DNA of 34,446 nucleotides from Victivallales bacterium (GTDB lineage Bacteria; Verrucomicrobiota; Lentisphaeria; Oligosphaerales; Oligosphaeraceae), in NCBI GenBank assembly GCA_017617415.1, contig JAFZWH010000108.1:1-34446 (forward strand), given 5' to 3'. Below the pieces are notes generated by a model. It made no database searches. It was given only the letters and a program-made list of their open reading frames with translations, and was not told the DNA's origin. The position numbers and the translations under genes were made by a program. Positions 29,633 to 33,008 of this stretch are shown one piece after another (positions within the stretch are counted from its first letter, which is position 1; every line of letters begins with the position of its first letter).

Positions 29633-31306
29633 CTACTCGAAGCGTAGTTCGGATTTAAGGGGTTGACGGAGGATGGAGTCCTTGCCATGTGAGGCGGGGT
29701 CAGCGGCGGGGAGGTAGTCCAGGTTGTAATGGAGTCCGCGGGATTCTTGGCGTGCGGTGGCAGAGTCGATGATCATCTCGGCGACGCTGGCCAGGTTGCG
29801 AAGCTCCATCAGGTCGGGAGTCAGCAGGAAGTTCCAGTAGTACTTCTCGATCTCCTTGCGGATCATCTTGATGCGTGCTTTCGCACGCTCCAGGCGCTTG
29901 TTGGAGCGCACGATTCCGACATAGTCCCACATCAGGCGCCGAATTTCGTCCCAGTTGTGGGAGATGACAATCTGTTCATCGGAATCCACGGCGTTTCCGG
30001 CGGACCAGTCGGGAATCATGTCCGGCGTGATTTCGGAGTGTGGATTGGGCTGTCGGATGGCGTGCTGAACGGCGAAATTCGCGACCACCACCGCCTCAAG
30101 CAACGAGTTGGAAGCCAGGCGGTTGGCGCCGTGCAAGCCGGTGCAGCCGCATTCGCCGATGGCGTAGAGGTTCTTGACGCTGGTGACCCCGTTGACGTCG
30201 GTTCGCACGCCGCCGCAGCAGTAATGCGCCGCAGGCACGACGGGAATCAGGTCCTTCGCCATGTTGATGCCGAATTTCAGGCACTCGGAGAAGATGTTCG
30301 GGAAACGCTTGCGCAGGAACTCTTCCGATTTGTGGCGGATGTCCAGCCAGGCGCACTCCTGACCAGTACGCTTGAGTTCGTTGTCGATGGCGCGCGCCAC
30401 AATGTCACGCGGTGCCAGCGAGGCGAGCTTGTGGTAATTCTCCATAAAGGAGACATATTCGTTGCCTTTGCGAATCTTGAGGACTGCGCCTTCGCCGCGC
30501 ACCGCCTCGGAAATCAGGAAGGACTTGGCGTGCGGATGGTAGAGGATGGTTGGGTGGAACTGATAGAACTCCATGTTGGAGATTTCCGCGCTGGCGCGGT
30601 AGGCCATCGCCACGCCGTCCCCGCAGGCGACATCAGGATTGCAGGTGCATAGATAGACTTTGCCTGCGCCGCCAGTTGCCAGGAAGGTGAACTTGGCGAT
30701 AATGGTGTCGATCTCGTGAGTGGCGGTGTCAATCACGTAGGCGCCCAGACAGGCGTTGTCGCCTTGCCAGTCGATGTGGCGGGTGGAAATGAGGTCAACG
30801 GCGAGGTGATGTTCCCAGATGGTGATGTTCGGGTTCTCCTTGCAGCGGGCCAGCAGGACATCTGCGACTTCGCGTCCAGTGATGTCGCCGGCGTGCAGAA
30901 TGCGGCGTGCGGAATGCCCCCCCTCGCGTCCAAGATGATACTCGTTTCCTTGCGCCGACGGAAGGTCAGGAGTGACCTCCTTTTGCAAGGTGAAGTGGCA
31001 GCCCAGCGCCTGGAGGTTCCGGATGCGCTCCGGTCCCGCCTTCACAATCGCCCTGACCACCTCCGGCTTGCATAGCCCCGCGCCCGCCACCAGAGTGTCC
31101 TGCACATGCGCTTCGAAGGAGTCATGGTCTTCGGACATCACGCAGGCGATGCCACCCTGCGCGTAGTGCGTGTTGCAGTCCTCCGCGCGAGCCTTGGTGA
31201 CCATCAGCACCTTGCCATGCTTGGCCGCTTCCAGTGCGGCGGTCATGCCTGCCAGGCCGGAACCGATGACCAGATAGTCGATGGTGATGCGTTTGCTGGA
31301 TGACAT
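29633..31306 (-). CDS. nadB: L-aspartate oxidase
   Basis: This 557-residue flavoenzyme oxidises L-aspartate to iminoaspartate, which quinolinate synthase NadA uses for NAD. FAD-binding GSGLAGM is at residues 15-21. THYAQGGIACVM and the DTLVAGAGLC segment follow, then REGGHSARRILHAGDITGREV, FHPT and APRDIVARAID in the active-site domain, and the C-terminal AHYCCGGVRTD, YAIGECGCTGLHGANRLASNSLLEA. The helical C-terminal domain has WDYVGIVR and ESRGLHYNLDYP-like blocks, all as in E. coli NadB. I start at the ATG at 31306, where homology begins; the frame continues 55 codons upstream into the MITE-like element. No ribosome site is evident. nadA and nadC are not in the window. Confidence 0.94.
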   Translation of the reverse strand: MSSSKRITIDYLVIGSGLAGMTAALEAAKHGKVLMVTKARAEDCNTHYAQGGIACVMSEDHDSFEAHVQDTLVAGAGLCKPEVVRAIVKAGPERIRNLQALGCHFTLQKEVTPDLPSAQGNEYHLGREGGHSARRILHAGDITGREVADVLLARCKENPNITIWEHHLAVDLISTRHIDWQGDNACLGAYVIDTATHEIDTIIAKFTFLATGGAGKVYLCTCNPDVACGDGVAMAYRASAEISNMEFYQFHPTILYHPHAKSFLISEAVRGEGAVLKIRKGNEYVSFMENYHKLASLAPRDIVARAIDNELKRTGQECAWLDIRHKSEEFLRKRFPNIFSECLKFGINMAKDLIPVVPAAHYCCGGVRTDVNGVTSVKNLYAIGECGCTGLHGANRLASNSLLEAVVVANFAVQHAIRQPNPHSEITPDMIPDWSAGNAVDSDEQIVISHNWDEIRRLMWDYVGIVRSNKRLERAKARIKMIRKEIEKYYWNFLLTPDLMELRNLASVAEMIIDSATARQESRGLHYNLDYLPAADPASHGKDSILRQPLKSELRFE

Positions 31307-31411: not shown

Positions 31412-31702
31412 GGGATATTGCACTGCTGTCCCGTAAAAAACTGTGCCTTGCGTAAAATGCGACGGAAGCAAGGCAAGTTTGCCAGAAGGGCGATTTTAAC
31501 CAGTCAGTATCGGTAGCGCTTTTTGCGTATATGCGCATGCGCGATCAGATAGGGAGGCATGCCCCCACCCCCTACGATAGTAATGTAATGCGGTTTTCGT
31601 CCAGTTGCAAGTCCGATGGCGGGAAAGGAAACGGAATCGTAGTTTTCCTATGATTTTTGCCTTGAGACGGTAGTTTCACTGGACAGCAGTGGGGGGATAT
31701 TG
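31412..31702. mobile_element. MITE-like insertion with inverted repeats and 9-bp duplication
   Basis: CACTGCTGTCC (31421-31431) and its inverse GGACAGCAGTG (31681-31691) are perfect 11-bp terminal repeats, extending imperfectly to about 18 bp (CGTAAAA vs AGTGAAA). The nine bases GGGATATTG lie directly left (31412-31420) and again at 31694-31702 on the right, after two extra G bases. The 271-base interior is not a transposase; it contains palindromes such as GCGCATGCGC (31533-31542) and GCCTTGC/GCAAGGC. A 9-base duplication is typical of IS4-like transposition. The source transposase is not in the window. Confidence 0.75.
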
Positions 31703-31960: not shown

Positions 31961-31976
31961 TGGCACGCCCTTTGCT
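31961..31976 (+). promoter_or_regulatory. Sigma-54 (RpoN) promoter of the exported protein at 32049
   Basis: TGGCACG-CCCT-TTGCT fits the -24/-12 consensus TGGCACG-N4-TTGCW exactly. GG (31962-31963) and GC (31974-31975) are separated by the required 10 bases. Transcription would start near 31987, giving a leader of about 62 bases with GGGAG (32035-32039) before the ATG. Such promoters depend on an NtrC-type activator that would bind upstream. Confidence 0.75.
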
Positions 31977-32048: not shown

Positions 32049-33008
32049 ATGAGAAAACTCTTACTTTCGTTATTGACGGCGTTTTTGTGTGTGGCCTCAT
32101 GCGTCGTTTACGCGCAGAACTGGGGCAAAGTGACAGTGTATGCCTCGTGGGAGCTTATCACGGATTTCGGCATGGGGGGAGCAAGCCGTGTTGCATACAT
32201 GGCGATTGGCGACGCCAATCAGCAATGGGATCCCTATCCGCCAGGCACCCCTGACAATGCCAGTAACATACTGGCGCTTGAAGTCGGTGACAAGAATTAC
32301 AAGCAAGTGTCGAACCATGTGAAAATTGACCTGAATTCCCCGGCGAGTTTCGAGACGGATTGGCTGCTTCAGTTCTCCACCACGACCGGCGTCCCCGCGA
32401 AAGTGACCATCCGGTGCCTGTCCAACCAGTTGCCGAATCCGGCATCGCTGAAGCTCCGGCTGCTGGCGGTGGATGGCAGCGAAGTGGAGATCACGGCGGT
32501 CACGGCGGGTTCGTCCCAGGAGGTGGAGGTGCTTTCCGAAGCGGCGCCGAATACTCTGATGGCGACCTACGAGGTGCCGCTGGTGAACGGCGTGGAGTAT
32601 GCCCTGAACCTGGCTCCCGGCTGGAATTTGGTTGGCATTCCCTTGCTGGAGGTCACCGACGATGGTGGACTCTTGCATCATGCGGTGTTGCACTTGAACA
32701 GCGTGATTACACATGTTTCCGAACTGCGGCAAGGTGCAGCATATTGGGTGTACAACAATGCAAACGCAGTTGCAATAGTGACACTTAAGGGAACGGCCTA
32801 CATTGGCGAGAAAAGCGCTCTCGCCAATGACCTGACGACGGGTTGGAACTATGTCAGTCTGGCAGGCACCGTCAAAGACTCTACTACCAAGGAGTTCGCT
32901 CCTGCGGAGTCGCCCTCCAATCAGATTTGGCGCTGGGATGCATCGAGGCAGAGTTTTGTCCAGGATTCCGTGCTGGAACTTGGCGCGGGTTATGTGATCA
33001 AGAATTAG
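32049..33008 (+). CDS. Exported protein with paired GWN...GY domains, sigma-54 controlled
   Basis: This 319-residue protein has a signal peptide (MRKLLLSLLTAFLCVASC, cleavage near residue 22 after VYA). The first part (about 23-190) is beta-rich. The second part has two copies of a pattern found in secreted proteins of Planctomycetes-like groups: APGWNLVGIPL...AYWVYNNAN and TTGWNYVSLAG...GAGYVIKN. No catalytic motif is visible; it may bind or display something at the cell surface. Because it lies behind a sigma-54 promoter, its expression is probably conditional. It ends before the duplicated promoters of the next exported protein. GGGAG nine bases before the ATG fits the start. Confidence 0.78.
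   Translation: MRKLLLSLLTAFLCVASCVVYAQNWGKVTVYASWELITDFGMGGASRVAYMAIGDANQQWDPYPPGTPDNASNILALEVGDKNYKQVSNHVKIDLNSPASFETDWLLQFSTTTGVPAKVTIRCLSNQLPNPASLKLRLLAVDGSEVEITAVTAGSSQEVEVLSEAAPNTLMATYEVPLVNGVEYALNLAPGWNLVGIPLLEVTDDGGLLHHAVLHLNSVITHVSELRQGAAYWVYNNANAVAIVTLKGTAYIGEKSALANDLTTGWNYVSLAGTVKDSTTKEFAPAESPSNQIWRWDASRQSFVQDSVLELGAGYVIKN

Follow-up and report, generated by a model that had tools for sequence, protein, structure and literature searches.

MITEs, IS4 elements, and MITEs bearing promoters are already known (PMC10969869, PMC5896051, PMC4596501). Bacterial MITEs derived from insertion sequences (ISs) are shorter than 500 bp, structured, and mostly intergenic; they carry inverted repeats as well as target duplications, and their ends match an IS of the same genome (PMC10969869). 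The Correia elements of Neisseria are MITEs with a sigma-70-type promoter or a small RNA, and a promoter or small RNA is likewise carried by QMITE1/2 of Coxiella (PMC5896051) and BrickBuilt of Porphyromonas (PMC4596501). The IS4Sa subgroup has been described as comprising elements of 1150-1750 bp with ends CA------T and repeats of 8-10 bp (De Palmenaer 2008, Table 1, PMC2266710). The element described here, which lies upstream of nadB in a Victivallales bacterium, shares all the listed properties of the IS-derived MITEs, albeit with an interior unit that, unlike theirs, is also kept by the host genus without transposon ends. It resembles Correia, QMITE1/2, and BrickBuilt in kind but differs from each of them in ends, host, and interior; moreover, transcription has been shown for those three, whereas the promoter of the present element is a predicted one. 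It is a new MITE family, that is, a known kind of element with an unusual interior.

The window, meaning the whole stretch of 34,446 nucleotides that was analyzed, carries the element at positions 31421..31691 of the plus strand (271 bp). It is confirmed as a real multi-copy MITE of a rumen-type Victivallales bacterium; the closest named relatives of its nadB are from Victivallales MAGs of sheep rumen, water buffalo abomasum, and goat abomasum. The element has no transposase gene, and no long open frame was found inside its 271 bp. The left terminal inverted repeat (31421..31438, plus strand; consensus across copies CACTGCTGTCCGGTAAAA) is perfect over its first 11 bp and the right one (31674..31691, minus strand; likewise defined by a consensus across copies) over its last 11 bp. 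As described in the sequence-only reading, perfect 11-bp repeats (31421-31431 and 31681-31691) are followed by near-repeats, with 89% identity when extended to 18 bp. The nonamer GGGATATTG flanks the element at 31412..31420 and, as read in the sequence, at 31694..31702. Two extra G residues, attributed to later slippage within a G run, precede the right nonamer (31692..31693). The gene nadB, encoding L-aspartate oxidase (TIGR00551), is located on the minus strand at 29633..31306, with 105 bp between its start codon and the insertion. The "sigma-54 gene" that had been named as the other neighbor can be called so only for the sigma-54-type promoter motif in front of it, TGGCACG-N4-TTGCT. This motif, recognized by eye, is found at 31961-31976, about 70 bp ahead of the coding region of a 319-amino acid protein (32049-33008) for which no family was matched in Pfam and NCBIfam.

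A search of the own genome (3.2 Mb) with the 271-bp sequence, as had been proposed from the sequence, returned 40 matches at E < 1e-11, and 26 of these are nearly full length. The nearly full-length copies are 78-87% identical, with identity to the window copy peaking at 87% for full-length ones; this suggests an old family and sets it apart from the described IS-derived MITEs (PMC10969869). For the terminal 11-mer the genome has 24 occurrences, against none for the reversed control; with the 18-bp consensus end and up to three mismatches, 63 matches were obtained versus 2 in the control. For the 22 copies with both ends, the left flank was compared with the right flank at each length from 5 to 13 bp. 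Mean flank identity was 0.67 at 9 bp versus 0.22-0.32 at the other lengths, and at least seven of the nine positions were identical in 14 of the 22 copies. No clear 9-bp duplication is seen in this count for the other eight, which include the window copy, where the duplication is shifted by GG. The set of 22, on which the duplication length is based, includes some other families with equal ends but different interiors (C97:3373-3636, C42:4189-4627). These two and C101:6305-6567 are MITE-like, with MITE-type ends and unrelated interiors, and a perfect 9-bp duplication is present in two of the three. The insertion with a 9-bp duplication that had been read from the repeated nonamer is thus borne out by the roughly 40 copies and by the peak of flank identity at 9 bp.

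The distribution of the element was followed in three other species of the genus, referred to as G001, G002, and G003, with G000 denoting the host genome. In the sister species G001, whose nadB is 99% identical, an insertion is found at the identical place, and its nonamers CAATATCCT and CAATATCCC abut the inverted repeats directly, without the two G residues. The element therefore comprises exactly 31421-31691, and the GG of the window arose later; the extra bases noticed in the sequence-only reading are real, but the uncertainty about the ends which they had caused is removed. G002 and G003 have no insertion at nadB. The rest of their intergenic region differs, which precludes naming an exact empty site at this locus; a clean one was obtained for another copy, C38:12310-12582, whose duplication is GCCCAAAGA. 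When its flanks are joined, they match G002:C334 as one continuous stretch of 290 bp at 91% identity, in which GCCCAAAGA stands once. The proposed comparison with empty sites has accordingly succeeded for the C38 copy and not for nadB itself. That the repeats are coincidental, with no insertion at all, is contradicted by the copy number, the 9-bp peak, the empty site, and the orthologous insertion, and its probability is practically negligible. The MITE was found only within the genus, where G002 is almost devoid of it; 37 further genomes from the family and order yielded none. All four species share a promoter-like block, GTCARGATTAGGAA...TWMATTA, which is situated on the side of the insertion that faces nadB. 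The gene has thus probably been severed only from farther-upstream sequence and not, as had been supposed, from its original upstream region as a whole.

A source transposase, which had been reported as missing, is missing from the window only. Orphan ends elsewhere in the genome led to a transposase split over two contig ends. The segment C163:19366-19819, starting with CACTACTGTCCGATAAAA, codes for the beginning of the protein, and C33:25093-26053 for the remainder, with a terminal inverted repeat that begins CACTGCTGTCCGATTAAA. The two contigs share 108 identical bases, from which an element of 1307 bp with a single frame of 393 amino acids was pieced together. The nonamer CAGCAGCAA is identical on both outer flanks of the assembled IS and represents its own 9-bp duplication; C163 and C33 therefore very probably flank one insertion. 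The protein contains an N-terminal DUF4372 (PF14294) and DDE_Tnp_1 (PF01609), is assigned to the IS4 family by NCBIfam NF033592, and has the YREK motif YRRRWQIELFFKWIK, as read from the protein sequence. The ends of the IS begin CACT[A/G]CTGTCC, as expected of the transposase that had been sought, and they match those of the MITE in the common form CACT[G/A]CTGTCCG[G/A]TAAAA. Close relatives of the transposase, 88-90% identical and with matching ends, are present in G003. The helper IS is like IS4Sa in its YREK motif, ends CA------T, length of 1307 bp, and 9-bp repeats, but has the N-terminal DUF4372; the fit is judged by the published description (PMC2266710). From the shared ends and the shared 9-bp duplications we infer that this IS4-type transposase would move the MITE in trans. 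In size, inverted repeats, target duplication, copy number, empty site, and ends in common with an autonomous element, the sequence upstream of nadB corresponds to a bacterial MITE.

Common ends and a common duplication length would also be compatible with an origin of the MITE by internal deletion of the 1307-bp IS, the interior then being leftover IS sequence. The likeness between the two ends about 20 bp from either terminus, however, and only matches of chance length (8-11 bp) are found beyond; furthermore, the elements on C97, C101, and C42 mentioned above combine the same ends with other interiors. Such an origin is very unlikely. Judged by this comparison, the interior is not derived from the helper IS.

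The interior contains a conserved unit of about 115 bp (31541..31660, minus strand), which also exists elsewhere without transposon ends. In the column conservation over 57 matches, two blocks stand out (element positions 115-150 and 203-240). On the minus strand, the unit reads AAAAATCATAGGAAAACTAAGATTCCGTTTCC, TTGCAA, 17 variable bases, TTACATTA, 4-6 bases, and the hairpin GGGGGTGGGGG-nnnn-CCTCCC. In the window copy, the alignment of copies places an upstream box, GGAAAACTACGATTCC (family consensus GGAAAACTAAGATTCC), at 31633..31648, followed on the same strand by a -35-like hexamer TTGCAA (31605..31610) and, 17 bp farther in the direction of nadB, by a -10-like hexamer TACATT (31582..31587). 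Directly past the expected transcription start, a GC hairpin GGGGGTGGGGG-CATG-CCTCCC would form (31551..31573, minus strand). The sigma-70-type signature (TTG-N16/17-TAnnnT, ahead of the GC hairpin) shows a promoter-like pattern of conservation, and a promoter sequence in the interior is a trait of the promoter-bearing MITEs as well. TTG and TAnnnT are among the invariant positions in 23 diverged copies without terminal inverted repeats (TIRs), the spacer sequence varies, and the spacing of the hexamers is 16 or 17 wherever the pattern occurs. Each hexamer agrees with the E. coli consensus at just four of its six positions, and the conserved hexamers were not flagged by a generic promoter/terminator scan. 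In diverged copies the hairpin is still paired with other bases, for example, GGGTGGGGG-AA-CCCCCACCC and GGGTGGGG-CT-CCCCACCC. This conservation was judged by eye, because alignment-based consensus folding of the closer copies yielded zero pairs with both sides changed. At the far end of the element, a terminator-like stem TGCCTTGC / GCAAGGCA is read in the sequence, followed by a run of T residues that falls within the left inverted repeat (31435..31475, minus strand). Its loop exceeds what the generic scanner accepts, and a clear compensatory change was not found in this stem. In Rfam, no family reached the gathering score for either the MITE or the TIR-less copies.

About 20 TIR-less copies are found near divergent genes in the genus, approximately 15 of them in the host genome and several in G002 and G003, and for most the distance to the start of the divergent open frame is 30-110 bp. 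The host units are located at C96:27016, C76:56072, C42:23081, C104:26654/24390/9858, C74:28772, and C123:13273, and further ones at C56:4254/12991/49928, C36:3091, C3:11417, and C60:373/3918. Pairs or triples of them are orthologous across G000, G002, and G003, with the promoter and hairpin blocks kept and the remainder changed. A reading of the TIR-less copies as decayed MITEs that have lost their ends, rather than as the captured source, is favored by traces of both ends that persist in some diverged copies (C3:7923-8123 and its ortholog on C6 of G003). It is, however, difficult to reconcile with decay that promoter and hairpin blocks are kept at orthologous loci in three species, that TIR-less copies are present in the nearly MITE-free G002, and that another genus has two or three of them although its genomes yielded no MITE; we regard decay as rather doubtful. 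Capture is preferred because the TIR-less pattern is the one expected if a regulatory or RNA unit were under selection, and the interior seems to be a host unit that was captured and spread by the MITE. In its fullest form, this account would have a conserved unit of the family, regulatory or RNA in nature (GGAAAACTAAGATTCC box, promoter, and hairpin), maintained by selection at fixed positions near divergent genes, spread by the IS4-type MITE to about 35 further sites, and perhaps related to a CRISPR leader; as a whole it is plausible, but it is put forward tentatively.

The proposed course of events would be as follows. The IS4-family transposase would recognize the shared ends CACT[G/A]CTGTCCG[G/A]TAAAA and cut 9 bp apart in a staggered manner, giving rise to the 9-bp duplications. 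The insertion into the nadB upstream region predates the split of the host species from G001. The interior, most likely a captured host unit, would direct transcription towards nadB from its sigma-70-type promoter, with the GC hairpin heading the transcript, and the terminator-like stem plus T run at the far (left) end would stop the RNA inside the element. A MITE acting chiefly as a mobile promoter for nadB and other neighbors would agree with the orientation of the promoter-type signature, which points at nadB, and promoters have been documented in other MITEs (PMC4596501, PMC5896051, PMC10969869). On the other hand, the terminator-like stem intervenes between promoter and gene, nadB keeps its own promoter-like block, and the copies show no orientation bias: the next gene runs with the element in 18 cases and against it in 19. 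A general role as promoter of neighboring genes is unsupported by these directions, and a chiefly promoter-delivering element is improbable. Given the terminator-like stem and the lack of preference for a gene direction, the likeliest product would be a short structured RNA ending inside the element, rather than nadB mRNA. Taken as a whole, it is highly probable that a MITE was inserted upstream of nadB by the lineage's IS4-family transposase, with a most likely captured interior and a putative short RNA. For this MITE of an uncultured Victivallales (Lentisphaeria) lineage, the ends, the length of the duplication, an empty site, an orthologous insertion, and a likely helper IS are all shown, a level at which such cases usually stay open. 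Should the interior unit prove functional, it would exemplify how a transposon can multiply a host promoter-RNA unit genome-wide, and the approximately 20 TIR-less sites would be a defined set for expression tests.

Profile searches with the unit extended its range to another genus of the family, with two matches in G008 and one in G024, which are weak but conserve the architecture. One later model included both G008 sequences, so that its E-values for this genome are not independent; an earlier profile gave independent values of 1.8e-4 and 4.8e-4 per genome. At G008:C1:24278-24358, the relative of the unit forms the leader end and the first repeat of a CRISPR-like array of seven 28-bp repeats (GGACCACCCACACGCGCGAGGGGTCAAG) spaced by about 61 bp, with the hairpin running into the first of them. 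This array is located away from the cas1 locus, and the array beside cas1 has a different repeat. A search for Cas1 in G000-G003 gave no match. With a differing repeat at cas1 and no Cas1 match in these four genomes, the connection comes down to one locus; a relationship of the unit to a CRISPR leader is conceivable, but is to be taken as a lead only.

Repeats of another kind accompany the TIR-less units within the genus. At G003:C95:147620-147855, the unit is present twice in head-to-tail orientation, and the orthologous host unit, C104:26654, was matched once. Directly downstream of many TIR-less units, short sequences of 7-70 bp are repeated in tandem, with a different array at each locus. 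Tandem repeats occur downstream in 9 of 26 cases versus upstream in 2 of 26, and in 4 of 28 MITE flanks, which amounts to a weak enrichment.
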